From: Cellulomonas fimi ATCC 484
Lineage (GTDB): Bacteria > Actinomycetota > Actinomycetes > Actinomycetales > Cellulomonadaceae
NCBI RefSeq assembly: GCF_000212695.1
Contig: NC_015514.1
Span: 806,001 to 870,000, forward strand
Direction of reading: 5' to 3'
DNA length: 64,000 nucleotides
A program made the translations under genes and the position numbers. Below are positions 14,264-49,922 of this stretch, one piece after another. Below the pieces are notes generated by a model. The model ran no database searches and had not been told where the DNA came from. It was given only the letters and a program-made list of their open reading frames with translations. Position 1 is the stretch's first letter, and every line of letters starts with the position of its first letter.

Positions 14264-14413
14264 GAGGAACCTTCCGGGAGCCGGCGCCCGCGACGACAGC
14301 GCGCGGGACGACCGGGGGACCGGCCCAGCCTACGTCCGCGCCGCCGGCGACCCGTCCGCGCGCCCGCGGGGCGGACCCGTCCGGCCGCGCACCCGCCGCC
14401 TACGATGGCCCGC

Positions 14414-16306
14414 ATGCCCGCTGCCCCCCGAGCGAGCCTCGGTGAGGCGTTCCGCGGCCTGTACTACTACCTGTACGCGAACGGCCAGGCCAGCAGGGCC
14501 GAGCGCATCGTCGAGGACATGACGCTCGCGCTGCTCGCCAAGCTCGCGGTCGAGCGCACGGCGTCGATGCGCACCTACGACGAGGTCCTCGACGGCGCGT
14601 CGCCCGACGTGCTGCTCGACCTCGTCGCCGCGCAGTTCCCCGGCGCGATCCGGCCCGAGGAGCGGTTCAACAACGACGCCGCCGCGGTCCGCGACGCGTT
14701 GCGCGCGCTGCGGGACGTCGAGCTGAGCGACGCGCCCGCGCACGTCGTCGGCGAGGCGTTCCAGGCGGTCGTCGGGCCGCGCGTCCGCGGCGAGAAGGGC
14801 CAGTTCTTCACGCCGCGCTCCCTGGTCGCGGCGATGGTCGCGATCGTCGACCCGCAGCCCGGCGAGAAGGTCGTCGACCCCGCCGCGGGGTCGGGCGGGT
14901 TCCTCGTGGAGGCGCACGCGCACGCCGCCGGTCGTGGGGGAGCGGCGACCGTCGTCGGCGGCGACAAGGACTTCGACCTGTTCCGGCTCCAGACGGCCCT
15001 GCTCGCCATGGTCGCGGGCGACGACGCGCACCCGCACCACCAGAACTCGCTCGACCTCGACGCGTGGTCCCACGTCGCGGCCGGCGGTCTCGGCACCTAC
15101 GACGTGGTCCTCGCGAACCCGCCGTTCGGCGCGCGCATCGGCGTCGAGGACCAGGCGCTGCTCGGCCGCTACGACCTCGCGCACGTCTGGAGCCGCGACC
15201 CGCGCACCGGCGGGTGGCGCCGCACGGACACCGTCGACCGCAGCCGGGACCCGCAGATCCTGTTCCTCGAGCTGTGCGTCCGGCTGCTGCGCCCCGGCGG
15301 GCGGATGGGGATCGTGCTGCCCGAGGGCGTGTTCGGCAACGCCGGCTCCGCGTACGTCTGGGAGTGGCTGCGCACCCAGGGCGCGATCGAGGCGCTGCTC
15401 GACTGCCCGCGCACGACGTTCCAGCCGGGCACCGACACCAAGACGAACGTGCTGTTCTTCCGCAAGGACGCGCCGCAGGGACCGACGTGGGTCGCGTCCG
15501 CGCTGCACTGCGGGCACGACCGGCGCGGGCGTCGGGTCGACGCCTCCGGGCGCTCCGTCGCGGACGACTTCCCGGCGCTCGCGGCCGAGCACGCGCAGCG
15601 CGGCACCGACGGCTCCCGCTGGCAGCAGGCCGACCTCACCGACGCGACGTACCTCGTCCCGCGCTACTTCGAGCGTCCCGCACCGCGGACCCCGCAGGAG
15701 GCCCGGCTCGTCGAGGGCGCCCGCTGGGTGTCGCTCGGCGACCTCGTCCACGACGGCGCGCTCACCGTCCGCAAGGGCCACGAACCCGGCTCCGACGCCT
15801 ACGGCACGGGCGACGTGCCCTTCGTCCGCACGTCCGACGTCGCCAACTTCGAGGTGTCCACCGACCCCACCAAGTCCGTGTCCGAGGAGGTCTGGGCCCG
15901 CTACCGCGACTCCCAGGCGCTGCGCCCCGGCGACCTGCTCATGGTCGTCGACGGCCGCTACCGCATCGGCACCGCCGCGATGGTCACGCAGCGGACCGTC
16001 CGCAGCGTCATCCAGAGCCACCTGCGGATCCTGTCCGTCACGCCCGGCACTCCCGACCTCGACCCGTACGCCCTGCTGTACGCGCTCACGCTCCCGTCGG
16101 TGCGCCTGCGTGTCCGCGACCTCGTGTTCGTCCAGAGCACCCTCGGCACCCTCGGCGCGCGGCTCTTCGAGCTCGAGGTCCCGCTCCTCGGCGGCGACGG
16201 GCCGTGGCGGGGGAGCGTCGAGGCGTTCCGGCGCGTCCTCGACGGCCGCGACGCGCTCCTCACCGAGCTCGAGCGCGCGACCGCGGGGGAGACGTTCGAG
16301 CTGTAG
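14414..16306 (+). CDS. N6-adenine DNA methylase fused to an HsdS-like recognition domain
   Basis: 630 residues. The N-terminal 115 residues resemble the helical HsdM N-domain, then GQFFTP (129-134), SAM motif I DPAAGSGGF (155-163) and catalytic NPPF (235-238). This is a gamma-class m6A methylase like HsdM. Residues about 445-610 (RWVSLGDLVHDGALTVRKG, GDVPFVRTSDVANFEV, LRPGDLLMVVDGRYRIGTAAMV, LRILSV) look like one target-recognition half of HsdS. No nuclease motif or adjacent hsdR is visible. ATG at 14414 lies 7 nt after -10 box TACGAT, suggesting a leaderless message; an in-frame ATG at 14405 is an alternative. It ends 63 bases before the SWIM operon. Confidence 0.87.
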   Translation: MPAAPRASLGEAFRGLYYYLYANGQASRAERIVEDMTLALLAKLAVERTASMRTYDEVLDGASPDVLLDLVAAQFPGAIRPEERFNNDAAAVRDALRALRDVELSDAPAHVVGEAFQAVVGPRVRGEKGQFFTPRSLVAAMVAIVDPQPGEKVVDPAAGSGGFLVEAHAHAAGRGGAATVVGGDKDFDLFRLQTALLAMVAGDDAHPHHQNSLDLDAWSHVAAGGLGTYDVVLANPPFGARIGVEDQALLGRYDLAHVWSRDPRTGGWRRTDTVDRSRDPQILFLELCVRLLRPGGRMGIVLPEGVFGNAGSAYVWEWLRTQGAIEALLDCPRTTFQPGTDTKTNVLFFRKDAPQGPTWVASALHCGHDRRGRRVDASGRSVADDFPALAAEHAQRGTDGSRWQQADLTDATYLVPRYFERPAPRTPQEARLVEGARWVSLGDLVHDGALTVRKGHEPGSDAYGTGDVPFVRTSDVANFEVSTDPTKSVSEEVWARYRDSQALRPGDLLMVVDGRYRIGTAAMVTQRTVRSVIQSHLRILSVTPGTPDLDPYALLYALTLPSVRLRVRDLVFVQSTLGTLGARLFELEVPLLGGDGPWRGSVEAFRRVLDGRDALLTELERATAGETFEL

Positions 16307-16369
16307 CGGTCGGGTGGCGCTGCGGGGGGCGGGGTGGGACTGTCCGTGCACGCCGCTACGGTTCGGTCC

Positions 16370-17686
16370 GTGCAACCGCGGTGGACGACCGAGCAGGTCC
16401 TGGCCCTCGCCCCGGACCCGGCGTCCGCGACGGCCGGCCGCAGGCTCGCCACGCCCGGGCCGTGGAGCGAGCTCGGCGCAGGTGCCGGCACGTCCGCCGT
16501 CTGGGGGCTGTGCGCGGGGTCCGGGAAGACCCCGTACCGGGCCTGCGTCGACCTGTCCGGCCCGGCGTTCTCGTGCTCGTGCCCGTCGCGCAAGTTCCCG
16601 TGCAAGCACGCGCTCGCGCTGCTCCTGCTGTGGGCCGACGGCACCGTCCCCGACGCGACCGAGGTCGCCCCGCACGCCGTCGCGTGGCTCGACGGTCGCC
16701 GGGACCGCGCCGCGAAGGCCGCCGCGAAGAAGGACGAGGCCGCGACGCCCGACCCGGTCGCAGCGGCCCGCCGTGCCGAGCGGCGCGCGGGCAACGTCGG
16801 CGCGGGGCTCGAGGAGCTGCGCACGTGGCTGCGCGACCAGGTCCGGACCGGTCTGGCCGGGACGGACCGGGCCGGCTACGGGCACGTCGACCGGGTCGCG
16901 GCGCGCATGGTCGACGCGCAGGCCCCCGGACTCGCGACCGCCGTGCGTGCCGTCCCGTCGCTCGCCGCGAGCGGACCGGACTGGCCCGTGCGGGTCCTCG
17001 ACCACCTGGCGCTCACCCACCTGCTCACGACGGCGCACGCCCGGCTCGGCGAGCTCCCGGACGAGCTCGCCGACGTCGTCCGCAGCCGCGTGGGGTACCC
17101 CACGCGCACCGAGGACGTCCTCGCGACGGCGCCCGTGCGCGACCGGTGGGACGTGTGGGCGATGCACGACTCCGTCGACGGGCGCCTGGCCGTGCGCCGG
17201 ACGCTGCTGCGCGGTGCGTCGACCGGTCGCACCGTCGCCTTGGTGTCGTTCGCCGCGGGGAGCCAGCCGTTGGACGTGACCGTCCCCCCGGGCGTCAGCA
17301 TCGACGCCGACGTGCACCTCTACCCGGGAGCGCCGACCCGGGGCGTGCTCGGCGAGCGCCACGGCGAGCCGGGTCCGCCGAGCACCGACGCCGGGGTGTC
17401 GGTCCTCGACGCCACCGCCGCGTGGGCCCGGGCGCTGGCAGCCGATCCGTGGACCACGCAGGTGCCGGTCGTGCTCGCGGGCGTCGTGCCGGTGCCCGCC
17501 GACTCCTCGGACCGTGGCTGGGTGCTGCGCGACGAGACCCACGCGCTGCCCGCGGTCGCGTCCCCGCACCTGTGGCGCGTGCTCGCCGTCAGCGGCGGCC
17601 GCCCCGTGAGCGTCGCCGGCGAGCACACGAGCGACGGGGTCCTGGTGTGTGCGGTGCGGGGCGAGGACGGGCTGGTGACGTGGTGA
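16370..17686 (+). CDS. SWIM zinc-finger protein, first gene of a MoxR/VWA operon
   Basis: 438 residues. A SWIM finger lies at 69-80: C69-x-C71-x6-C78-x-H80 in FSCSCPSRKFPCKHAL. SWIM domains bind nucleic acid or protein. An Ala/Lys/Arg-rich helix follows (about 105-140), then a large domain I do not recognise. Start GTG at 16370 is 7 nt after -10 box TACGGT, so the operon message is likely leaderless. The DUF5691 gene follows 22 bases later. This gene order (SWIM, DUF5691, MoxR, DUF5682, VWA) is one I recall as recurring in actinobacteria, which suggests a joint complex; its biological role is not established as far as I know. Confidence 0.85.
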   Translation: MQPRWTTEQVLALAPDPASATAGRRLATPGPWSELGAGAGTSAVWGLCAGSGKTPYRACVDLSGPAFSCSCPSRKFPCKHALALLLLWADGTVPDATEVAPHAVAWLDGRRDRAAKAAAKKDEAATPDPVAAARRAERRAGNVGAGLEELRTWLRDQVRTGLAGTDRAGYGHVDRVAARMVDAQAPGLATAVRAVPSLAASGPDWPVRVLDHLALTHLLTTAHARLGELPDELADVVRSRVGYPTRTEDVLATAPVRDRWDVWAMHDSVDGRLAVRRTLLRGASTGRTVALVSFAAGSQPLDVTVPPGVSIDADVHLYPGAPTRGVLGERHGEPGPPSTDAGVSVLDATAAWARALAADPWTTQVPVVLAGVVPVPADSSDRGWVLRDETHALPAVASPHLWRVLAVSGGRPVSVAGEHTSDGVLVCAVRGEDGLVTW

Positions 17687-17708
17687 GCGCGAGGCGGAGC
17701 GAGGACGG

Positions 17709-19229
17709 GTGGGCAGCGTGGTGAGTGCACCGCTCGGCGAGGACCTCGTCACCGCCGCCCTCATGGGCACGGCGCGCCGCGCGCCGGACCTCGCCACGAT
17801 CCCCGGCGCCGCGGGCGACCTGGCGCGACGGATCGACGAGGCCGACCCGGCCGGTGCGCTGCTCGACGCGGCCGCGCTCGTCGCGGTCACGCGCCGGGCC
17901 GGCACACCCGCGAGGCGCGCCCCGGAGGCACCCGAACCGGCAGCGCCGGAGACGCTGGCCTCCGTCCCGCCCGCCGCCGCGCAGCGGCTGGCCGGGCTGC
18001 TGGTGGCTCCCGGCGCGACCGCCGACCCGGCGCTGCTCACGTGGCTGGACGCCGCGGCCGCCGCCGGGTACCGGGCCCCCGCGCAGCACCTGCCCGCGCT
18101 GCTGGACCTCGCGTGCACGCCGTCGACCGGGGCCGCCGTGCGCGACGCGGTCGTCGCCGTCCTCGGCGAGCGCGGCCGCTGGCTCGCCGCGCAGCGCGAC
18201 GACTGGGCCGCGCGGATCGACCCGGCCCCGCCCGCCGGAACCGGCGACGTCTGGGACCACGGCACCGACGCCCAGCGTGCCGCGCACCTGTCCCACGTGC
18301 GGGCCCGGGACCCGCAGGCCGGCCTCGACCTGCTCGCAGGCACGTGGAAGAAGGAGAAGGCCGACACCCGTGCCGCGCTGCTGCGTCGCCTGGGCACCGG
18401 CCTCTCGGCGGCCGACGCGCCGTTCCTCGAGGCGGCCGTCGCGGACCGGTCGGCGGGCGTCCGGGCGCTCGCGGTCGAGCTCCTGTCGCTCCTGCCCGAC
18501 GCGCCGTTCACGCGCGCCGTCACGGCCCGCGCCCTGGCGAGCGTCCGGGCGGAGCGTCGGCTCGTGCGGCGGACCCTGGCGCTGACCCTGCCCGAGGCCC
18601 ACCCCGGCGATCCCTTCCCGCCGCCGCGGACCGGGCACGCACCGTCCGTGTGGCTGCTCACGGAGCTGGTCGCCGCGACCCCGCTCGCCGCCTGGACCGC
18701 GCACCTCGGCGGCTCGCCGGCCGACCTGGTCGCGATGACCGCCAAGGACGCCGAGCTCGACGTCCTGCGCCGCGGCTGGACCCGGGCCGCGCGCACCCAG
18801 CGTGACCCCGTCTGGGCGGCCGCGCTCCTGGCGGCCGGCGTCGACGCGCTCGACCTGGTCGACGTGCTCGCGCCCGACGCCCGTGCCCGTCACCTGGCCG
18901 GCCTGCTCGCGCGGGACGGCTCGGGACCGGCCAACCGGTCGTCCGCCGAGCTGGCCGGCCTCCTCGCCCGGGCGGGCGACCCGTGGCCGGACCTGCTCGT
19001 CGCGGCGGTACTGACCTGGGCCGCCGGTGCCGGTCGGCGCCAGCACGACTGGTACGCGAACGGGACGCTCACCGAGGCGGTGCAGCACCTGCCGCCGCGT
19101 GCCGACGTCGAGGCGACCCTGCGGGGCGCCGCGGACCGGCTCGACCCCGCCCACACCTGGCGCCATGCGCTGCACCGCGCCGCCGACACCCTGCACACCC
19201 GCCGCGTGATCCTCGAGGAGCTCAGATGA
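17709..19229 (+). CDS. DUF5691-family helical-repeat protein
   Basis: 506 residues, very rich in Ala, Leu, Asp and Arg. Repeated amphipathic helices give a HEAT/ARM-like look (AALLRRLGTGLSAADAPFLEAAVADRSAGVRALAVELLSLLP). I assign DUF5691 from this pattern plus position in the SWIM-MoxR-DUF5682-VWA operon. No catalytic motif is visible; a scaffold or adaptor role for the MoxR ATPase is inference. Start is uncertain: GTG at 17709 follows GGAGCGAGGAC, while GTG codons at 17718 and 17721 are also possible. Its stop overlaps the MoxR start as ATGA. Confidence 0.78.
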   Translation: MGSVVSAPLGEDLVTAALMGTARRAPDLATIPGAAGDLARRIDEADPAGALLDAAALVAVTRRAGTPARRAPEAPEPAAPETLASVPPAAAQRLAGLLVAPGATADPALLTWLDAAAAAGYRAPAQHLPALLDLACTPSTGAAVRDAVVAVLGERGRWLAAQRDDWAARIDPAPPAGTGDVWDHGTDAQRAAHLSHVRARDPQAGLDLLAGTWKKEKADTRAALLRRLGTGLSAADAPFLEAAVADRSAGVRALAVELLSLLPDAPFTRAVTARALASVRAERRLVRRTLALTLPEAHPGDPFPPPRTGHAPSVWLLTELVAATPLAAWTAHLGGSPADLVAMTAKDAELDVLRRGWTRAARTQRDPVWAAALLAAGVDALDLVDVLAPDARARHLAGLLARDGSGPANRSSAELAGLLARAGDPWPDLLVAAVLTWAAGAGRRQHDWYANGTLTEAVQHLPPRADVEATLRGAADRLDPAHTWRHALHRAADTLHTRRVILEELR

Positions 19230-20335
19230 CCACGACCACCCCCGCCGAGCCCTCGAGCGACCTGCTGCGCCCGCACGCCGAGCAGGCGTTCGCGCACGAG
19301 CTCGCCGCGCTCGCCGCGGCCGACGACCGCCCGCGCCCGCCGGGCTGGCAGCTGTCGCCCGCCGCCGTCGTGAGCTACCTGCTCGGCGGGACGCTGCCGG
19401 ACGGCACGGTCGTCACCCCGAAGTACGTGGGCCCCCGCCGTCTCGTCGAGGTGGCCGTCGCGACCCTCGCGACCGACCGCGCGCTCCTGCTGCTGGGTGT
19501 CCCCGGAACGGCGAAGACGTGGGTGTCCGAGCACCTCGCCGCCGCGATCAGCGGCACGTCCGCGCTGGTCGTGCAGGGCACGTCAGGCACGGGGGACGAC
19601 GCGCTGCGGTACGGGTGGAACTACGCGCGCCTGCTCACCGAGGGCCCGACGCCTGCGGCCCTCGTCGAGTCGCCGGTGATGAGCGCGATGCGCACCGCAC
19701 GGATCGCGCGCATCGAGGAGCTCACGCGCATCCCGTCCGACGTGCAGGACGCGCTCATCTCGATCCTGTCCGAGAAGTCGCTGCCCGTGCCCGAGCTCGC
19801 GACCGAGGTCCAGGCGGCCAAGGGGTTCAACGTCATCGCGACCGCGAACGACCGGGACCGCGGCGTCAACGACCTGTCGTCGGCGCTGCGCCGCCGCTTC
19901 AACACCGTGGTCCTGCCGCTGCCCGCGACCGAGGACGAGGAGGTGGAGATCGTGGCCCGCCGCGTGGCGCAGCTCGGCTCGTCCCTGGAGCTGCCGACCG
20001 CCCCTGCCGCCGCGGAGGAGATCCGGCGGGTCGTCACGGTGTTCCGCGAGCTGCGCTCCGGGCGCACGAGCGACGGGCGCACGCAGCTCAAGTCCCCGTC
20101 CGGGACGCTGTCGACCGCCGAGGCGATCTCCGTGCTGACCGGTGGTCTCGCGCTGGCCGCGCACTTCGGCGACGGCGTGCTGCGGTCCGCCGACGTCGCG
20201 GCCGGGATCCTCGGCGCCGTCGTCAAGGACCCCGTCGCCGACAAGGCCGTCTGGACCGAGTACCTCGAGGCGGTCGTGCGCGAGCGGTCCGGGTGGGCCG
20301 ACTTCTACCGCGCGTGCCGCGAGGTCAGCGGATGA
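19226..20335 (+). CDS. MoxR-family AAA+ ATPase
   Basis: 369 residues. Walker A is GVPGTAKT (91-98, K97), the Walker B region is RIARIEEL (about 159-166), sensor 1 is NVIATANDRDRG, and the arginine-finger region is LSSALRRRFN. MoxR ATPases usually work with VWA-domain partners as chaperones or metal-chelatase-like machines; the partner here is encoded two genes downstream. The N-terminal 70 residues precede the ATPase core and are specific to this subfamily. Both ends overlap neighbours by ATGA (19226-19229 and 20332-20335), indicating translational coupling and fixed stoichiometry. Confidence 0.92.
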   Translation: MTTTTPAEPSSDLLRPHAEQAFAHELAALAAADDRPRPPGWQLSPAAVVSYLLGGTLPDGTVVTPKYVGPRRLVEVAVATLATDRALLLLGVPGTAKTWVSEHLAAAISGTSALVVQGTSGTGDDALRYGWNYARLLTEGPTPAALVESPVMSAMRTARIARIEELTRIPSDVQDALISILSEKSLPVPELATEVQAAKGFNVIATANDRDRGVNDLSSALRRRFNTVVLPLPATEDEEVEIVARRVAQLGSSLELPTAPAAAEEIRRVVTVFRELRSGRTSDGRTQLKSPSGTLSTAEAISVLTGGLALAAHFGDGVLRSADVAAGILGAVVKDPVADKAVWTEYLEAVVRERSGWADFYRACREVSG

Positions 20336-22830
20336 CGACCGGCACGGCCGCCGACGCCCCTCCGGACGTACCGCCTGACGCCGCGTCGACGGCACCGGTC
20401 GTGCGCGTGATGGGTGTGCGGCACCACGGACCCGGCTCGGCGCGGGCGGTCGCCGCCGCCCTCGAGGAGCTGCAGCCGGACGTCGTGCTGATCGAAGGTC
20501 CCGCCGACGCCGACCCGCTCGCCGTGCTCGCCGCCGACCCCGACCTGCGCCCTCCGGTCGCGCTCCTCGCCTACGCGACCGACGCCCCGTCGCAGGCCGC
20601 GTTCTGGCCGTTCGCGGTGTTCTCCCCGGAGTGGCAGGCCCTGACCTGGGCGGCGGCCCACGAGGTGCCCGTCCGGTTCTGCGACCTGCCGTCGGGCGCC
20701 GTGCTGGCCGCGCGCACGGATGGGCGCGACGCACCGGCCGCCGATGGCGATGCGGACGGCGCGGACGGGGCCCGCGAGGCAGACGGGGCCGACGGGGCCG
20801 GCGCCGACCCGGCTGCCGATGGCGACGCGGCCGGCACCGACCGGGCCGCCGGCGCCGACGCGGACGGCGCCGACCAGGACGCCGACGCGCCCCGCGACGC
20901 CGACGGGGGCGGGCCTGACGCGGGTGACCCGGAGCCGAGCACCGGGGGCGACGTGCCGCCCGCGCGCGACGGCCACGCCCTGCGGACCGACCCGGTCGCG
21001 CAGCTCGCGTCCGCCGCCGGGTACACCGACCCGGAGCGCTGGTGGGAGGACGTCGTCGAGCACCGCCGCGACGGTGCCGCCCCGTTCGCCGTCCTCACCG
21101 AGGCGATGGCAGCGCTGCGTGAGGCCGCGGAGCCGCTGCCCGCCCACGAGGCCGAGCACGAGGAGCGCCGTGAGGCGCACATGCGCCAGACGCTGCGCGC
21201 CGTGCTCAAGTCCGGCGCCCGGCGGGTCGCGGTCGTCTGCGGCGCCTGGCACGCGCCCGCGCTCGACGGGAAGCTGCCGCCGGCGTCCCACGACGCGAAG
21301 GTGCTGCGCGGCCTGCCCAAGCGCCCGACCGCGACGACGTGGGTGCCGTGGACCGCGTCCCGCCTGGCGTTCGCGTCCGGGTACGGCGCCGGCGTCACGT
21401 CGCCCGGGTGGTACCACCACCTGTTCACGACCGAGACGGACGTGACCGCCCGGTGGATGGTCAGGGTCGCGGGGGTCCTGCGCGCGGAGGACCTGCCCGT
21501 GTCCTCCGCGCACGCGATCGAGGCCACGCGGCTGGCCGACGCGCTCGCGGTCATGCGCGGCCGCCCGCACCCCGGCCTGGAGGAGGTCACCGAGGCCATC
21601 CGGGCGGTGATGTGCGACGGGGACGACCTCCTGCTCGAGCTCGTCACGGGGCGGCTCGTCGTCGGGGAGGCGCTCGGCACCGTCCCCGGCTCCGTCCCGA
21701 CCGTCCCGCTCGAGGCCGACCTGCGCGCGACGGGGCGCCGCCTGCGGCTCAAGCTCGACGCCGTCCCGCGCGACCTGGCGCTCGACCTGCGCAAGGACAC
21801 CGACCGGGACCGGTCGACGCTGCTGCGCCGCCTGCGGCTGCTGGGTGTCCACTGGGGCACGCCCCAGACGTCCGCCGTGCGGTCCACGGGGACGTTCCGT
21901 GAGACGTGGTCGCTCGCGTGGAAGCCCGAGCTGTCGGTCGCCGTCGTCGACGCCGCGATGTGGGGCACGACCGTCCCGGGCGCCGCCACGGCGAAGGTGG
22001 TCGACACCGCCGGCAACGCGGCGCTGCCCGCCCTGACCGGCCTGGTCGAGGACGTCCTGGCCGCGGACCTGCCCGACGCGCTCGGCGCCCTGCTGTCTGA
22101 GCTCGACGCCCGGGCCGCCCGCGACGTGGACACCGCGCACCTGATGGCCGCACTGCCGGCCCTGGTGCGCGCCGAGCGGTACACCGACGTGCGCGGCACC
22201 CGCACGACCGACCTGACCCGCGTCGTCGACGCGCTGGTGATCCGCACGTGCGCGGCGTTGCCCGCGGCCGTGAGCAGCCTGGACGACGACGCGGCGGCCC
22301 GGATGCGGGACGCGGTCGACGCCGTCCACGCGGCGGTGATGCTGCGCGACCCCGGGCACACCCGCGACCTGTGGCTCGCGACGCTCGCGGGCCTGGCCGA
22401 CCGCCCGGACCTGGCGGGCGTGCTCGCGGGCCGGGTCACGCGTCTGCTGCGCGAGACGGGGACGCTCAGCACGCAGGACGCCGCGACCCGCTTCGGCCGG
22501 GCCCTGTCCGTGGGCGCGACGCCGCCCCACAAAGCCGCATGGGTCGAGGGCTTCCTCGCCGGCACCGGTCTGCTGCTGGCCCGCGACACCGACCTGCTCG
22601 ACCCGCTCGACACCTGGGTCGCGACCCTCGACGAGCAGGAGTTCACCGACGTCCTGCCGCTGCTGCGTCGCACGTTCGGCGGGTTCGCGCCCGCGGAGCG
22701 CCGTGCGGTCGGGGACGCCGTCCGCCGCACCACCCGTCCCGGCGCGACGCTCGCCCCGGTCGACGTCGACGAGGACCTCGCGGCGCCCGCGCTGGCCGCA
22801 GTCGCCCTGATCCTGGGAGTGAGCCGATGA
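20332..22830 (+). CDS. DUF5682-family protein, possible TIKI/TraB-like enzyme
   Basis: 832 residues. The N-terminus reads VMGVRHHGPGSARAVAAALEELQPDVVLIEGPADAD, with H31-H32 and E55; a later strand VAVVCGAWHAPAL carries H308. The order GxxHH, E, GxxH resembles the metal-binding pattern of the TIKI/TraB/EreA-like fold, so hydrolase activity is possible; this is inference. An Asp/Ala/Gly-rich acidic insert of about 80 residues (129-212) interrupts the N-terminal domain and is probably disordered. The C-terminal half is helical and unrecognised. It overlaps both neighbours by ATGA. It is the largest protein of the operon and its likely effector or client-binding subunit. Confidence 0.82.
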   Translation: MTTGTAADAPPDVPPDAASTAPVVRVMGVRHHGPGSARAVAAALEELQPDVVLIEGPADADPLAVLAADPDLRPPVALLAYATDAPSQAAFWPFAVFSPEWQALTWAAAHEVPVRFCDLPSGAVLAARTDGRDAPAADGDADGADGAREADGADGAGADPAADGDAAGTDRAAGADADGADQDADAPRDADGGGPDAGDPEPSTGGDVPPARDGHALRTDPVAQLASAAGYTDPERWWEDVVEHRRDGAAPFAVLTEAMAALREAAEPLPAHEAEHEERREAHMRQTLRAVLKSGARRVAVVCGAWHAPALDGKLPPASHDAKVLRGLPKRPTATTWVPWTASRLAFASGYGAGVTSPGWYHHLFTTETDVTARWMVRVAGVLRAEDLPVSSAHAIEATRLADALAVMRGRPHPGLEEVTEAIRAVMCDGDDLLLELVTGRLVVGEALGTVPGSVPTVPLEADLRATGRRLRLKLDAVPRDLALDLRKDTDRDRSTLLRRLRLLGVHWGTPQTSAVRSTGTFRETWSLAWKPELSVAVVDAAMWGTTVPGAATAKVVDTAGNAALPALTGLVEDVLAADLPDALGALLSELDARAARDVDTAHLMAALPALVRAERYTDVRGTRTTDLTRVVDALVIRTCAALPAAVSSLDDDAAARMRDAVDAVHAAVMLRDPGHTRDLWLATLAGLADRPDLAGVLAGRVTRLLRETGTLSTQDAATRFGRALSVGATPPHKAAWVEGFLAGTGLLLARDTDLLDPLDTWVATLDEQEFTDVLPLLRRTFGGFAPAERRAVGDAVRRTTRPGATLAPVDVDEDLAAPALAAVALILGVSR

Positions 22831-24041
22831 CCGAGGTGCCCTCGCCCGTCGACGACCAGGTCGCCGTCCGCGTCGACGACGCCACCCGGCTGCGCCGGTG
22901 GCGCCTGCTCCTCGGCGGCGAGGCCGGCGACCTGGCCGGGCCGCTGCACGGCGACGCGGCCGCGATGGACGCCGCGCTGGCCGCCCTCTACGACACGGGT
23001 GCCGGGGGTGCGCGCGGCGCGGGCGGCTCACGCTCGGCCGGGCTGGGCGGGTCGGCACCCCGGGTCGCGCGGTGGCTCGGCGACATCCGGACCTACTTCC
23101 CGTCGACCGTCGTGCAGGTCATGCAGAAGGACGCGGTCGACCGTCTCGGGCTGGCCCGCCTGCTGCTCGAGCCCGAGCTGCTGTCCACCGTCGAGCCGAA
23201 CGTCAACCTCGTCGGCACCCTGCTGTCGCTGAACCGCGTCATGCCCGAGCAGACGAAGGCCACCGCCCGGCAGGTCGTCGCCCACGTCGTCGACGAGATC
23301 GAGCAGCGGATCTCGACCGCCACCACGTCCGCCGTGACGGGCGCCCTGCGCCGGGGCGAGCGCACGCACCGCCCACGGCCGCGGGACATCGACTGGGACG
23401 CGACCATCCGCGCCAACCTGCGTCACTACCTGCCCGAGCACCGGACCGTGATCCCGCAGCGGCTCGTCGGGGAATCGCGCCGGCACTCCGTCGTCGCGCG
23501 GGACGTCGTGCTGTGCATCGACCAGTCCGGCTCCATGGCCGAGTCGGTCGTCTACGCGTCGGTGTTCGGCGCGGTGCTCGCGTCGATGCGTGCGCTGAAG
23601 ACGTCGCTGGTCGTGTTCGACACGGAGGTCGTCGACCTGACCGACCGGCTGGCCGACCCCGTCGACGTCCTGTTCGGCACGCAGCTCGGCGGCGGGACCG
23701 ACATCAACCGCGCCATCGCGTACTCGCAGTCCCTCATCACGCGCCCGAACGACTCCCTGTTCGTGCTCATCAGCGACCTCTACGAGGGCGGGGTCCGCGA
23801 CGAGATGCTCCGGCGGGTCGCGACGATGCAGGCCAGCGGCGTCCAGGTCGTCGTGCTCCTGGCGCTGTCCGACTCCGGCGCCCCCGCCTTCGACCACGAG
23901 AACGCGGCCGCTCTCGCGGCCCTCGGCGTCCCCGCGTTCGCCTGCACACCCGACGCGTTCCCCGACCTGCTCGCCGTCGCACTGTCCCGCGGCGACGTCG
24001 GCCGGTGGGCGCAGAGCACCCTGGGAGTGCCGACGGGCTGA
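22827..24041 (+). CDS. VWA-domain protein, partner of the MoxR ATPase
   Basis: 404 residues. The helical N-terminal half (about 20-215) is CoxE-like. The C-terminal VWA domain has a full MIDAS: D232-x-S234-x-S236 in CIDQSGSMAES, T291 in GGGTDINRA and the later DLYEGG. VWA proteins of this type bind a divalent metal and are driven by MoxR ATPases. It is the last of the five coupled genes; its ATG overlaps the DUF5682 stop by ATGA. A Gly/Ala/Arg linker lies at about 58-78. No signal peptide, so it acts in the cytoplasm. It ends 46 bases before the PH-like gene. Confidence 0.9.
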   Translation: MTEVPSPVDDQVAVRVDDATRLRRWRLLLGGEAGDLAGPLHGDAAAMDAALAALYDTGAGGARGAGGSRSAGLGGSAPRVARWLGDIRTYFPSTVVQVMQKDAVDRLGLARLLLEPELLSTVEPNVNLVGTLLSLNRVMPEQTKATARQVVAHVVDEIEQRISTATTSAVTGALRRGERTHRPRPRDIDWDATIRANLRHYLPEHRTVIPQRLVGESRRHSVVARDVVLCIDQSGSMAESVVYASVFGAVLASMRALKTSLVVFDTEVVDLTDRLADPVDVLFGTQLGGGTDINRAIAYSQSLITRPNDSLFVLISDLYEGGVRDEMLRRVATMQASGVQVVVLLALSDSGAPAFDHENAAALAALGVPAFACTPDAFPDLLAVALSRGDVGRWAQSTLGVPTG

Positions 24042-24087: not shown

Positions 24088-24462
24088 ATGGCCGATGTCC
24101 CGCACGACAAGCCCGACCAGCTCGCGAAGATCATGAGCGGGCTGCTGCAGGGGGAGCAGCTCTACGCCGTCTACGACTGCATCGGCGTCGGGACGGGTTT
24201 CGTCGGGCTGACCGACAAGCGCGTGATCTTCCAGGACAACAGCTTCGTCGGGAAGAAGGTCGCGATCACGTCGGTGCCGTACGGGCAGATCCGCTCGGTG
24301 TCCATGGTCGCCAACAAGTCGTGGGCGGGGAGCTTCTACTCGACGTCCTCGATCGCCCTCGACGTCGGTGGCAGCGTCCGTGAGGCCGACTTCCGCGGCG
24401 AGCAGAAGGCCCGGCACGTGCACGACGTCATCCTCTGGAAGATCACGGGAGGCGGCGCCTGA
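24088..24462 (+). CDS. Small PH-domain-like protein
   Basis: 124 residues matching the bacterial PH-domain pattern: a short helix, then LTDKRVIFQDNSFVGKKVAITSVPYGQIRSVSM with the turn-rich strands and a C-terminal helix HVHDVILWKITG. Bacterial PH domains bind lipids or proteins; no ligand is known here. Start ATG at 24088 has AGAGAGGAG 4-12 nt upstream. It may belong to the MoxR/VWA operon as a sixth gene or may be independent. Confidence 0.8.
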   Translation: MADVPHDKPDQLAKIMSGLLQGEQLYAVYDCIGVGTGFVGLTDKRVIFQDNSFVGKKVAITSVPYGQIRSVSMVANKSWAGSFYSTSSIALDVGGSVREADFRGEQKARHVHDVILWKITGGGA

Positions 24463-30892: not shown

Positions 30893-32509
30893 ATGCGTGG
30901 TAGGTCGATGACGAGGTCCAGGATTTCGTCGACGAACGGTATTCGTGGTGTTGCGGGGAATGCGGGCGCGCGGCGTGTCGTGGGTGCGCTGGCGGCAGTG
31001 GCGCTCGCCGGGTCGCTCGCGGCCTGCTCGTCGGACGGGACGAGCGACGGTGCGGTCGCACCTGACGGTGCCTACGAGGACGCGTTCGCGCCGGACCAGT
31101 GGCGCGACGTCCCGACGGACCCGCAGGAGGAGTACGACGACTCGCCGGAGCAGCCGTTCCAGGACGTGACGACGAGCCCGCTGTCGACGTTCGCGTCGGA
31201 CGTCGACACGGCGTCGTACAGCAACCTGCGCCGCCAGCTCCGCCAGGGCGTCGAGCCGGAGGGCGTCCGGATCGAGGAGCTCGTCAACTACTTCGACTAC
31301 GACTACCCGGCGCCGGAACCGGACGCGGAGGACCCGTTCACGGTCACGACGCAGGTCGCGGACGCGCCGTGGGCGCCCGGCCACCAGCTCGCGATGATCG
31401 GCGTGCAGGCGACGGACGTGAAGCCCACGACGCGCGGCAACAACGTCGTCTTCCTGCTGGACGTGTCGGGATCGATGGACGAGCCGAACAAGCTGCCGCT
31501 GCTCGCCGACTCGTTCGCGCTCCTGGTCGAGCAGCTCGACGAGGACGACACGGTCTCGATCGTGACCTACGCGGGCAGCGACCAGGTGCTCGCGGACTCG
31601 GTGCCGGGCGACCGGCGCGGGGAGATCGTCGACATCCTGCGTGAGCTGCGGGCCGGTGGCTCGACGGGCGGCGCGCGCGGGCTGGAGACGGCGTACGAGC
31701 TCGCGGCGAAGAACTTCGTCGAGGGCGGCAACAACCGCGTCATCCTGGCGACGGACGGCGACTTCAACGTCGGCCCGTCGACGCCGGAGCAGCTCACCGA
31801 GCTCATCGAGGAGCACGCCCGGACCGGCGTCTACATCTCGGTGCTCGGCTTCGGGATGGGGAACCTCAAGGACAGCACGATGGAGGCGATCGCCGACCAC
31901 GGGAACGGCAACTACGCGTACATCGACACGCTCGACGAGGCGCGCAAGGTCCTCGTGGACGAGTTCGACTCGACGATGTTCGTCGTGGCGCAGGACCTCA
32001 AGGTGCAGGTGGAGCTCAACCCCGCGACGGTGTCGCAGTACCGCCTGCTCGGCTACGACAACCGCCGGCTGGAGGACGAGGAGTTCGCCGACGACACGAA
32101 GGACGCGGGCGACGTGGGCGCCGGGCACGAGGTCACGGCGTTCTACGAGCTGGTCCCGGCGCAGGGGTCGGGCGGCGACGACGGCTTGGACTACCAGGAC
32201 GTCGAGCCGGGCTCGTCGGGCGACTTCCTGACGGTGCACGTGCGCTACAAGGACCCGGGTGCGACCGAGAGCACCGAGGTCGTCTTCCCCGCGGGCGCCG
32301 ACACGTACACGACCCGCCCGACGAGCGACTTCCGGTTCGCGTCCGCGGTGGTCGAGTTCGCGCTCGCGGCGACGGGATCGCAGCACGCGGGCGACGCCGA
32401 CCCGGCGCGGGCCCGGGAGCGGGCGGGTGCCGCCCTCGGCGAGGACCCCTACGGCCTGCGGGCGGAGTTCGTCACCCTCGTCGAGGAGTACCTGGAGCTG
32501 ACCGCCTGA
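30893..32509 (+). CDS. YfbK-type VWA lipoprotein
   Basis: 538 residues. Lipobox LAGSLAAC with C45 marks a lipoprotein after an Arg-rich signal. The N-terminal domain (about 90-170: PLSTFASDVDTASYSNLRRQL, VRIEELVNYFDYDYP) is the von Willebrand-associated domain of YfbK-like proteins. The VWA domain follows with MIDAS D190-x-S192-x-S194 in FLLDVSGSMDEPNK, TDGDFNVG and the threonine in GGSTGGARGL. The C-terminal DUF3520-like part reads TFLTVHVRYKDP-type DFLTVHVRYKDP and GLRAEFVTLVEEY. Role unknown, probably an adhesion or assembly factor at the outer face of the membrane. Start ATG at 30893 has GGAGGA with a 6-nt spacer. It is unrelated to the MoxR-linked VWA gene at 22827. Confidence 0.9.
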   Translation: MRGRSMTRSRISSTNGIRGVAGNAGARRVVGALAAVALAGSLAACSSDGTSDGAVAPDGAYEDAFAPDQWRDVPTDPQEEYDDSPEQPFQDVTTSPLSTFASDVDTASYSNLRRQLRQGVEPEGVRIEELVNYFDYDYPAPEPDAEDPFTVTTQVADAPWAPGHQLAMIGVQATDVKPTTRGNNVVFLLDVSGSMDEPNKLPLLADSFALLVEQLDEDDTVSIVTYAGSDQVLADSVPGDRRGEIVDILRELRAGGSTGGARGLETAYELAAKNFVEGGNNRVILATDGDFNVGPSTPEQLTELIEEHARTGVYISVLGFGMGNLKDSTMEAIADHGNGNYAYIDTLDEARKVLVDEFDSTMFVVAQDLKVQVELNPATVSQYRLLGYDNRRLEDEEFADDTKDAGDVGAGHEVTAFYELVPAQGSGGDDGLDYQDVEPGSSGDFLTVHVRYKDPGATESTEVVFPAGADTYTTRPTSDFRFASAVVEFALAATGSQHAGDADPARARERAGAALGEDPYGLRAEFVTLVEEYLELTA

Positions 32510-47610: not shown

Positions 47611-47660
47611 GGCGGCGGTCCTGTGCCCGGCCGGGGCCGGCGGACGTGAGGGAGTCGCGC

Positions 47661-49922
47661 ATGACCGAGGCCACGTTCCTCGCCCCCGGCGAGCCCGTGG
47701 ACCTCGACAACTGCGCACGTGAGCCGATCCACGTCCCCGGCAGCGTCCAGCCGCGTGGCGTCCTGCTGGCCGTCTCGGAGCCCGACCTCGTCGTCGCGCA
47801 CGTCTCGGAGAACGTCGCCCACCTGCTCGGGGTGGCGGTCGAGGACGCGCTCGGCAGGCCGCTCGACGCCACCGTGGGCGCACGCAGCGCCGCCGCGGTC
47901 CGGCAGCACGTCGCCGCGTGGGGGAGCCTGCGCGAGCGCAACCCGTTGCAGCTCCTCGTCCCGACGCCCGGCGGCGACCTCGAGGTCGACGCCGTGCTGC
48001 ACCGGGTGGTCAGCGGCGACACGACGCTGCTCGTCATCGAGCTGGAGCCGGCGACCGGTCCACGGCCGTTCTCGTTCCCGAACACGTACCAGGCGGTGCG
48101 CGGGGTGGTCGAGCAGCTGAACCGCGCGCACGAGCTCACCGAGATGTACGACATCACCGCGCGCGAGGTCCGGGCGCTCACGGGGTTCGACCGCGTGATG
48201 GTCTACCGGTTCGACGCCGAGTACAACGGCGAGGTCGTGGCCGAGGCGCGCCGCGACGACCTCAACGCGTTCCTCGGCCTGCACTACCCGGCGTCCGACA
48301 TCCCGCCGCAGGCCCGCGCGCTGTACGAGAAGAACTGGGTGCGGCTCATCTCCGACGTCGCGTACACCCCGGCCCGGATCGTGCCGGGGATCGACGGACG
48401 CACCGGTCTGCCGCTCGACCTCACGCACGCGGTGCTGCGCAGCGTCTCGCCGATCCACTGCGAGTACCTGGGCAACATGGGCGTCGCCGCGTCGATGTCG
48501 ATCTCCCTGCTGCGTGACGGCCGGCTGTGGGGCCTCATCGCGTGCCACCACTACGCGGGCCCGTTCGAGCCGCCGTACGGCGTGCGCGCCGCGGCCGAGT
48601 TCCTCGGCTCGACCCTGTCGCTGCGCCTCGTGGCGCGCGTCGAGGAGGACGAGCTCGCCGACCGGCTCGCGTCGGCGGAGGTCCTCGGCCGGCTCGTGGA
48701 GAACGCGCGCGACGAGGACCGGCCGCTCGCGCAGGCCCTGCTCGACCCGCCGAGCCTGCTCGACCTCGTCCCGGCCGACGGTGCCGTCGCGCAGGTCGAC
48801 GGGGCGGTGCTGACCGCGGGCGACGTGCCGCGCGGCGTGGGCGCGCTGCTCACGTGGGTCGCGGAGCAGCCCGACGACGTCGTGGTCCGGACCGCGCTCG
48901 CCGACGAGGAGCCCGACCTCGCGCGGCACGTCCCCGAGGTCGCGGGGGTGCTCGCCCTGCGGCTGCCCGACGGGCAGTCGGCCGTGTGGCTGCGTCGCGA
49001 GCAGGTGCATCACGTCGACTGGGGCGGCGACCCGCACAACAAGGCGATCGCGCGTCGCGAGGGCGGCACCGTGCGCCTGAGCCCTCGCCTGTCGTTCGAG
49101 CTGTGGCGCGAGACGGTGCGGGGACGCAGCGCGCCGTGGGAGGACCGCCACGTACGGACCGCGACCGAGCTGCGGGCGCGCCTGCTCGAGGTGCTCGTGC
49201 TGCGGAGCCGGACCCGGCTGCGGGCTGCCCAGACCGTCCAGCGCAGCCTGCTGCCCGCGAGCCTGCCCGTGCTGGACGGGTGGAGCGTCGACGCGCGGTA
49301 CGAGCCCGCGGCGGGCGGACGCGTCGGGGGCGACTGGTACGACGCGCTGCTGCTCCCCGACGGCCGGCTCGCGGTCGTCGTCGGCGACGTCGCGGGGCAC
49401 GGGCTGGAGGCCGCCGCCGCGATGGGCCAGCTGCGTAACGCGCTGCGTGCCTACCTGCTGCGCGGCGACGGGCCGGCCCAGGTGCTGCGGGGGCTCGACC
49501 ACGTCGCGCGCTGGACCATGCCGTTCGAGATGGCGACCGTCGTGGTCGCGGTCGTGGACCCCGTCACGGGCGACGCGGACGTCGCGGTCGCCGGTCACCC
49601 CCGACCCGTCGTGCTGCACGCCGACGGCCGGGCCGAGCTCGTGCAGCTGCCCGTCGACCGGCCGGTCGGCGTCGGCAGCGGCGACCCGCCCGCCGGGAGG
49701 CTGCACGTGCCCGCGGGCGGTGCGCTCGTGCTGTACAGCGACGGGCTCGTCGACTCGCGCGCGACGCGGCTGCGCGACGGGCTCGCGCGGCTGCGTGCCG
49801 CGGTGGACCGCACGGACGACCCGGCCCGGCCGCTGCGCATCGACGACGTGCTCGACGCGTGCCGCGAGGAGGGCTCGGTCGACGACCTGACGCTGCTCGT
49901 GCTCTGCCGCGACGCCGCCTGA
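47661..49922 (+). CDS. Bacteriophytochrome fused to a SpoIIE/PP2C phosphatase
   Basis: 753 residues. The PAS part carries the biliverdin-binding cysteine C18 in DLDNCAREPIHVPGSVQPRG. The GAF part keeps D213-I-P in HYPASDIPPQAR, H266 in SPIHCEYLGNMG and H296/H297 in IACHHYAG, close to D. radiodurans numbering. The PHY part has the tongue motif PRLSF followed by W-x-E (about 470-480). Instead of a histidine kinase there is a helical linker and a PP2C domain from about 540: QRSLLPASLP, GGDWYDALLLPDG, VVGDVAGHGLEAA, YSDGLVDSR and a final VDDLTLLVL. It should be a red/far-red light-gated Ser/Thr phosphatase, probably acting on an anti-sigma-antagonist type partner. No haem oxygenase gene is nearby. 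Start ATG at 47661. Confidence 0.93.
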   Translation: MTEATFLAPGEPVDLDNCAREPIHVPGSVQPRGVLLAVSEPDLVVAHVSENVAHLLGVAVEDALGRPLDATVGARSAAAVRQHVAAWGSLRERNPLQLLVPTPGGDLEVDAVLHRVVSGDTTLLVIELEPATGPRPFSFPNTYQAVRGVVEQLNRAHELTEMYDITAREVRALTGFDRVMVYRFDAEYNGEVVAEARRDDLNAFLGLHYPASDIPPQARALYEKNWVRLISDVAYTPARIVPGIDGRTGLPLDLTHAVLRSVSPIHCEYLGNMGVAASMSISLLRDGRLWGLIACHHYAGPFEPPYGVRAAAEFLGSTLSLRLVARVEEDELADRLASAEVLGRLVENARDEDRPLAQALLDPPSLLDLVPADGAVAQVDGAVLTAGDVPRGVGALLTWVAEQPDDVVVRTALADEEPDLARHVPEVAGVLALRLPDGQSAVWLRREQVHHVDWGGDPHNKAIARREGGTVRLSPRLSFELWRETVRGRSAPWEDRHVRTATELRARLLEVLVLRSRTRLRAAQTVQRSLLPASLPVLDGWSVDARYEPAAGGRVGGDWYDALLLPDGRLAVVVGDVAGHGLEAAAAMGQLRNALRAYLLRGDGPAQVLRGLDHVARWTMPFEMATVVVAVVDPVTGDADVAVAGHPRPVVLHADGRAELVQLPVDRPVGVGSGDPPAGRLHVPAGGALVLYSDGLVDSRATRLRDGLARLRAAVDRTDDPARPLRIDDVLDACREEGSVDDLTLLVLCRDAA

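Follow-up and report, generated by a model that had tools for sequence, protein, structure and literature searches.

What does a MoxR ATPase do when it is encoded together not only with a VWA partner but also with a SWIM zinc-finger protein, a DUF5691 protein and a DUF5682 protein? The question is raised by five genes on the plus strand of the window, a 64,000-nucleotide stretch of Cellulomonas fimi ATCC 484 (NC_015514.1, positions 806,001 to 870,000). An initial annotation, made from the letters of the window, described them as one coupled operon, and this layout was fully reproduced, including the gene coordinates, three ATGA overlaps (at 19226, 20332 and 22827) and a 22-base gap between the SWIM and DUF5691 genes (17687-17708). 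Judged by its sequence, the operon is the actinobacterial form of ddrTUVWX, an operon known from Deinococcus, and a DNA-damage context for it is highly likely. The elements of the operon are the following.

16340..16362, plus strand: promoter-like site CTGTCCGTG-N8-TACGGT, with 2 mismatches to the P1 consensus, ending 7 bases 5' of the GTG at 16370
16370..17686 (alternative start 16334), plus strand: SWIM zinc-finger protein (DdrT equivalent; YehQ counterpart) with a SWIM domain (27.9 bits, cut-off 19.6), a helical middle and two possible OB-like domains
17709..19229, plus strand: DUF5691 helical protein (DdrU equivalent), a putative scaffold (Pfam PF18944, 366.8 bits), fused to SWIM in two other loci
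19226..20335, plus strand: MoxR AAA+ ATPase of the YehL type (DdrV equivalent; AAA_5, 126.3 bits), with Walker A GVPGTAKT and a Walker B with EE, not DE
20332..22830, plus strand: DUF5682 protein of 832 amino acids (DdrW/YehM equivalent; 889.9 bits), with a possible TraB/ChaN-like alpha/beta domain, an insert and HEAT-like repeats
22827..24041, plus strand: CoxE-type VWA protein (DdrX/YehP equivalent; VWA_CoxE, 178.3 bits) with an intact metal-ion-dependent adhesion site (MIDAS; DQSGS, GGGTD, SD)

All five Pfam matches lie above cut-off. The SWIM protein has the complete CxCx(n)CxH zinc finger, and C81, C83, C90 and H92 are invariant in 38 sequences. Its C-terminal half may consist of two OB folds, a signal near the detection limit, and OB-type entries are among its matches. 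The domain evidence and these matches support the earlier description of a nucleic-acid-type protein, in the sense that it possibly binds nucleic acid. For its start we favour 16370, the choice of the initial annotation, over 16334, because of the spacing from the promoter-like motif and because the family consensus starts with WT..QVLALAPD. The Walker A motif and arginine region of MoxR and the MIDAS of the VWA protein are intact. The Walker B motif of MoxR (19709-19720) reads RIEE instead of the usual DE.

The closest described system is found in Deinococcus deserti, where Deide_18730-Deide_18690 form a five-gene operon of unknown function that passages of PMC5552922 name ddrTUVWX; the operon starts with the gene of a SWIM zinc finger protein and ends with that of a CoxE-like VWA protein. 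According to the same passages, radiation induces Deide_18730 more than 10-fold and Deide_18720, Deide_18710 and Deide_18690 more than 5-fold, in an IrrE-dependent manner, and a radiation/desiccation response motif (RDRM) lies in front of the operon. Deide_18700 is unnamed in the main text of that paper, and induction is reported there for four of the five homologues. The Deinococcus operon is described as conserved in various species in part of PMC2669436, with the MoxR-like and VWA proteins proposed to be a chaperone system, and an excerpt of PMC8072749 places ddrTUVWX among the regulon members with unknown function. The statement of the initial annotation that the function of the set is not established was thus correct, but the operon had already been named, and its induction by radiation reported, in Deinococcus (PMC5552922, as excerpted).

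In Deinococcus taeanensis, a passage of PMC9510100 places a 78-amino-acid open reading frame (ORF) between ddrV and ddrW. A D. taeanensis locus in our set, L167, has the order SWIM, DUF5691, AAA ATPase, 78-amino-acid ORF, DUF5682, VWA, and because it contains the ORF described in that passage we take it as ddrTUVWX. Identity between its products and those of the window is 70% for MoxR, 55% for VWA, 41% for DUF5682, 37% for SWIM and 33%, over only 69 amino acids, for DUF5691. The window thus encodes the same five families, SWIM, DUF5691, MoxR, DUF5682 and CoxE-like VWA, in the same order and on one strand, and for Deinococcus a DNA-damage-type promoter is reported before the SWIM gene. The two systems differ in that Deinococcus uses IrrE/DdrO via the RDRM, whereas the window has a P1-like site, and in the additional ORF between MoxR and DUF5682 in D. 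taeanensis.

Genomes of the GTDB were scanned with a DUF5682 alignment, and the best 80 of at least 584 loci plus the E. coli locus (81 in total) were scored with iterated profiles, leaving out second DUF5691 matches over SWIM, which are shadow frames. Because they are the best of at least 584, the 80 loci are biased towards window-like ones. The five families were collinear on one strand in 50/81 loci. In 24 others, from Streptomyces and relatives, SWIM-DUF5691 lies on the strand opposite to MoxR-DUF5682-VWA, and seven loci are partial (E. coli, some truncated at the end of a contig, L052, in which VWA was not found, and L092, where DUF5682 is the only family). Adjacency is therefore usual in the neighbourhood search, where rarity would have spoken against the earlier proposal, and the arrangement exceeds chance. 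More than 1 kb of extra space lies between MoxR and DUF5682 in L080 and L085. By their record names the loci include Actinomycetes, Cyanobacteria (including an Obscuribacterales metagenome-assembled genome), Chloroflexi, Bacteroidota, a Phycisphaerales and Comamonas; seven phyla in all carry the operon, and the set is not confined to actinobacteria.

Among 149 genomes of the window's phylum, DUF5682 occurs in 10 and DUF5691 exceeds its cut-off in 9, all of which have DUF5682 no more than about 5 kb away by listed coordinates (Fisher p 1.3e-13, uncorrected for kinship). A tenth, below-cut-off DUF5691 match lies in a genome that lacks DUF5682 (G049), and G124 has DUF5682 without DUF5691. Within the window's family the set is an accessory unit, since DUF5682 is present in 22/81 genomes of the family and absent from the four other congeners searched. 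SWIM and DUF5691 are a single ORF in L026 and L138, as are DUF5682 and VWA in L132 and L134, and these fusions suggest that the products work together. Gene order, fusions and co-occurrence all agree with the earlier view of a single functional unit built on a MoxR-VWA pair.

The RDRM has the pattern TTATGN7CATAA. With this pattern we found no site with two or fewer mismatches 5' of the window SWIM gene. RDRM-like sites were present in 4 of 83 upstream regions (350 bases each, from the SWIM genes and the methylase gene that precedes the window operon), against a shuffle mean of 3.8. In L167, a one-mismatch RDRM-like site stops 19 bases 5' of SWIM and is the sole one in the 19-kb locus. We do not claim the window operon as a member of the Deinococcus radiation/desiccation response regulon.

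The upstream regions of the actinobacterial loci suggest another circuit. The P1 consensus of PafBC is tTGTCRgtg-8 nt-TAnnnT, as given in a passage of PMC5656591. P1 sites with two or fewer mismatches were found in 46 of the 83 upstream regions (shuffle mean 0.70), and across the 80 loci the density of sites with at most one mismatch was 1.214 per kb 5' of SWIM versus 0.00436 per kb elsewhere. Counting by locus was possible for 75 of the 80 (62 actinobacterial, 13 other), the others having no SWIM match or fewer than 80 bases upstream. A site within 120 bases of the SWIM profile start was present in 33/62 actinobacterial loci at one mismatch or fewer and in 43/62 at two or fewer; in the 13 other loci there was none at either threshold. 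Outside Streptomyces, and with genera taken from the record titles, sites with at most one mismatch were found in Nocardia (3/6) and in at least one locus each of Nonomuraea, Amycolatopsis, Nocardiopsis, Sphaerisporangium, Catenulispora, Kitasatospora, Wenjunlia, Actinacidiphila and a Propionibacteriaceae. Where MoxR is divergent, a separate P1 copy precedes the MoxR operon (26 loci with two or fewer mismatches, 24 with at most one), and the box in the Streptomyces SWIM and MoxR upstream regions reads TTGTCAGTG. Other actinobacterial DUF5682 systems have exact P1 sites upstream in L131 (2939-2961, before a WGR-DUF4132 gene), L133 (3549) and L134 (1388), and L132 has a one-mismatch site upstream of its DUF5682 cluster. 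The actinobacterial SOS box GAACN4GTTC was found in 0/83 upstream regions. Taken alone the P1-like site of the window is weak, and it gains support because relatives have strong matches at the same place. The distribution of these motifs suggests that PafBC probably switches the actinobacterial operon on from a P1-type promoter.

The genome that contains the window encodes a WYL pair, one member with HTH_PafC, and has 13 P1 sites with at most one mismatch, versus 4 for a reversed control pattern. The ORFs downstream of 8 of these 13 sites were scanned with Pfam; they include RecA, UvrB and a UvrD-type helicase, and the remaining five are two Glyoxalase_6 proteins, a DUF5680 protein, a sigma-70 factor and an EamA transporter. 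The Glyoxalase_6 pair and the DUF5680 gene of this genome (L188, L190, L179) have P1-type sites 6-7 bases 5' of their starts, which makes them candidate members of the damage regulon. According to a passage of PMC5656591, loss of pafBC in Mycobacterium smegmatis lowers glyoxylase-family proteins as well as MoxR1/2 and a von Willebrand factor protein, the MoxR and von Willebrand factor proteins being only possible members of the present family.

A DNA-damage response is thus indicated because two unrelated damage circuits would control the operon, IrrE/DdrO in Deinococcus and probably PafBC in actinobacteria. Of the two settings put forward initially, stress or phage conflict, the first gained support, in the form of DNA damage, from the radiation-induced Deinococcus operon and the P1 motifs.

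A related core is present in E. coli, where yehL-yehM-yehP-yehQ encode MoxR-DUF5682-VWA-SWIM (YehQ is a SWIM protein by Pfam and was missed by the SWIM profile in the 81-locus scoring). Window MoxR is 40% identical to YehL over 361 amino acids (E 1e-76), whereas RavA gave no match at E 1e-3; the window VWA protein is 37% identical to YehP, and window DUF5682 matches YehM. Being closer to YehL in this comparison of YehL with RavA, and having DUF5682 and VWA partners, the window MoxR belongs with the YehL subfamily named in part of PMC3893208. Both systems thus have, within one run of genes, the MoxR-DUF5682-VWA core and a SWIM protein. The yeh genes differ in that DUF5691 was not found, a WGR protein (YehF) and a DUF4132 protein (YehI) are encoded upstream, and SWIM comes last instead of first. 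This second, yeh-type class, in which DUF5691 was not found, is accompanied by a WGR-DUF4132 protein in L131, whereas in L135 the accompanying protein has DUF4132. Among the matches listed from the open-licence literature there was no functional study of the yeh genes.

MoxR proteins that work with CoxE-type VWA partners offer a different explanation. The set could be a maturation chaperone for another metalloenzyme or membrane complex, comparable to RavA-ViaA, CoxD-CoxE and NorQ-NorD, with DUF5682 as co-chaperone or adaptor and the damage link reflecting general stress. Like NorQ-NorD and CoxD-CoxE, the window encodes a MoxR AAA+ protein and a CoxE-type VWA protein with an intact MIDAS; among solved structures MoxR matches midasin and NorQ, and MoxR proteins have been proposed to serve dedicated complexes (PMC3893208, in part). 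Sequence searches of solved structures with the DUF5682, DUF5691 and SWIM profiles and with the VWA protein gave no meaningful match. In contrast to the respiratory or molybdenum enzymes that are the clients of NorQ-NorD and CoxD-CoxE, no such client is linked to the window operon, and the Walker B motif of the window type has EE in 80/80 aligned MoxR sequences, as in YehL. Flank-gene clusters mostly reflect synteny at the genus level, and the six cross-genus clusters that were scanned by example (MFS, ABC transporters, GAF/histidine kinase, aldo-keto reductase, SDR and DUF6350) contained no recurrent client-like neighbour. Since the DNA-damage promoters and the SWIM module also favour a nucleic-acid context, we regard a maturation chaperone as unlikely, at perhaps one chance in a few.

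The DUF5682 protein may provide the chemistry. Its layout comprises an alpha/beta domain (about 20-345) with a disordered insert (137-217), followed by HEAT-like helical repeats (about 457-804). The N-terminal domain appears to resemble TraB/PrgY/GumN and ChaN proteins: its secondary-structure elements and its motifs (G..H, E, R[ED]..M, G..H) follow each other in a similar order. Its motif residues are invariant and include the conserved His31, Glu55 and His307 (window numbering). It differs from these proteins in the added HEAT-like C-terminal half and in a sequence similarity that is at the detection limit. For HHalign we used a motif-selected profile that kept the 51 of 60 DUF5682 sequences with the required motif pattern and hence favours the motifs under test; in this selected set, ChaN+TraB scored 30.8 against the DUF5682 profile, where block-shuffled controls reached at most 23.3 (0/60). 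Shuffles attained the real score in 0/60 cases also for ChaN+Ere and TraB, in 2/60 for ChaN alone and in 14/60 for Erythro_esteras. With Foldseek, a TraB family protein was the rank 2 viral match (prob 0.99, E 0.069). A Foldseek search of the PDB with the whole protein returned helical-repeat matches and so speaks only to the repeat part. DUF5682 may thus consist of a TraB/ChaN-type hydrolase domain and HEAT-like repeats, near the detection limit, which lends support to its initial description as a possible hydrolase. In the open-licence literature, neither DUF5682 nor DUF5691 was found as a word in any paper.

The same resemblance would also fit a role in desiccation stress that does without nucleic acid, with small molecules, esters or haem as the targets of a ChaN- or EreA-like DUF5682. 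ChaN and Erythro_esteras, its putative distant relatives, have haem or esters as their targets, and the Deinococcus operon belongs to a radiation/desiccation regulon, as far as the cited excerpts describe it. The SWIM and OB-like domains within the set speak against this explanation, and so do the WGR and DUF4132 proteins that accompany the yeh-type core. WGR domains bind nucleic acid. We consider such a system improbable.

Combining the above, we propose that the operon encodes an ATP-driven DNA-damage-response machine. PafBC would turn on the operon from a P1-type promoter in actinobacteria. Anchored to a DUF5691 scaffold, the SWIM-OB-OB protein would bind nucleic acid or nucleoprotein at sites of damage. 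A MoxR hexamer and the VWA protein would act like NorQD, with a VWA finger in the pore and ATP-driven twisting; for NorQD, a passage of PMC13036017 describes a VWA finger in the AAA+ pore and proposes that hydrolysis twists the partner and metal enters the target. Their client would be DUF5682, pictured as a metallo-hydrolase of the TraB/ChaN type with a HEAT-like arm, and they could load it with metal, open it or press it onto its substrate; the position of its gene between those of MoxR and VWA, and its fusion to VWA in some genomes, make it the presumed target. Once damage has occurred, the SWIM-OB and DUF5691 proteins would bring the complex to nucleic acid. We give this overall explanation an even chance, and the action of MoxR-VWA on DUF5682 seems equally balanced between right and wrong. 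That the substrate resides on nucleic acid is more tentative, with the balance somewhat against it.

Several observations weigh against the proposed machine and its promoter. The window site has two mismatches, one of them in the core, and sites of this quality have a density of 0.038 per kb in the rest of the loci. Streptomyces accounts for 20 of the 33 P1-positive loci (20/21 Streptomyces loci at one mismatch or fewer), so the loci are not independent. No site with two or fewer mismatches was found near SWIM in Rhodococcus (0/3), Actinoplanes (0/3) or the single loci of Gordonia, Actinomyces, Symbioplanes, Antrihabitans and the listed Cellulomonas (0/1 each). For Streptomyces venezuelae, a passage of PMC9380542 mentions a first search whose result suggested that the PafBC motif of M. 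smegmatis is not conserved there. No exact SOS box was found upstream in the E. coli, Comamonas, Rhizobium and cyanobacterial loci; a one-mismatch SOS-type site lies before yehF.

The loci themselves add further points. VWA is missing from L052 and from the divergent locus L088 (not found in the 1.7 kb remaining on the contig), and both MoxR and VWA from L092, despite room on the contig; about 6.5 kb separates SWIM-DUF5691 from MoxR in L045, also one of the 24 divergent loci. The spread is patchy, as the four congeners without DUF5682 illustrate. HHalign gave probabilities of only 0.3-5.1% for DUF5682 with TraB, ChaN and Ere, where the unrelated DUF5691 gave 0.7 and 1.0%. With the unselected DUF5682 profile, built without the insert (window residues 136-214), values were only 0.3-0.9%; known pairs in that comparison gave 95.7 (ChaN-Ere), 79.5 (ChaN-TraB) and 0.4 (TraB-Ere).

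The genes on either side of the operon are the following.

14405-16306, plus strand: N6 DNA methylase of 633 amino acids with a specificity-like C-terminus, ending 27-63 bases before SWIM
24088-24462, downstream of VWA: bPH gene

We rejected both as parts of the system, as neither had a close homologue among the ORFs of the 81 loci in a phmmer search with default filters. The methylase has only partial matches (31-39%) in 4/10 other congeners. For the neighbouring MFS gene phmmer, which detects close homologues only, also found none in these ORFs, and MFS-type proteins occur in some loci. The MFS gene is conserved in congeners, and its surroundings were not syntenic in the four congener regions taken for an empty-site comparison, so that gain or loss of the operon cannot be dated.

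Phage conflict was the other setting suggested initially. A defence system against phages or plasmids would resemble the MoxR-vWA ternary conflict systems described in part of PMC7159879, in which MoxR and vWA are combined with VMAP, iSTAND, FtsH or beta-propeller components. As in those systems, MoxR, VWA and a constant extra component share one operon. The distribution is patchy and plasmid copies exist: a Rhizobium etli plasmid has all five genes, and the genes listed for a Hymenobacter radiodurans plasmid are those of SWIM, DUF5691, an AAA ATPase and, split into three pieces, DUF5682, but not VWA. The upstream methylase resembles MAD2 (197.6 bits, cut-off 720) and MoxR resembles MadB (45.7 bits, cut-off 475), both below cut-off. 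Yet the third component in the window is DUF5682, Pfam found no VMAP, iSTAND, FtsH or beta-propeller domain in the five proteins, bpMoxR scored 21 bits (cut-off 27), no extra effector domain was found on the window VWA protein, and the five-family make-up is the same across several phyla. PADLOC 2.0.0 gave no match for SWIM, DUF5691, DUF5682 and VWA and only weak matches for MoxR (E 0.006-0.05). DUF5682 matched 1/50,697 phage records, and 0/36 pattern-matched viral contig stretches encoded a relative. The one phage-collection record, MT835988.1 (10638-12755), is a 14-kb unannotated sequence from faecal samples and may be a bacterial fragment. Given the PADLOC, phage-record and viral-contig results we rejected phage defence, which now appears very unlikely.

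Two more genes of the window may be mentioned. Another VWA gene (30998-32509, plus strand) is YfbK-like and by domain make-up unrelated to the operon VWA, and 47646-49922 (plus strand) encodes a phytochrome fused to a SpoIIE phosphatase domain.

What was already known is the existence and name of the operon in Deinococcus. New are the probable actinobacterial damage promoter, the identification of the window operon with ddrTUVWX, the kinship with yehLMPQ, the fusions, and the domain readings of DUF5682 and the SWIM protein. Among the matches listed, the open-licence literature contained no functional study of the five-gene set and no link of it to PafBC. The TraB/ChaN assignment, if true, names the DUF5682 residues of interest. 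A more specific and rather improbable function would be clearance of DNA-protein crosslinks or stalled nucleoprotein, in which SWIM-OB finds the block, MoxR-VWA pulls or twists the protein, and DUF5682 cuts it as a TraB-type metalloprotease. Protein-crosslink clearance is known from the SPRTN/Wss1-p97 pair; if true, the set would be its bacterial functional counterpart, present in seven phyla and independently wired into two damage circuits. A probable damage promoter in many actinobacteria that is independent of IrrE/DdrO narrows the function of a widespread operon to one class of phenotype, and the yeh genes of E. coli join the same functional question.

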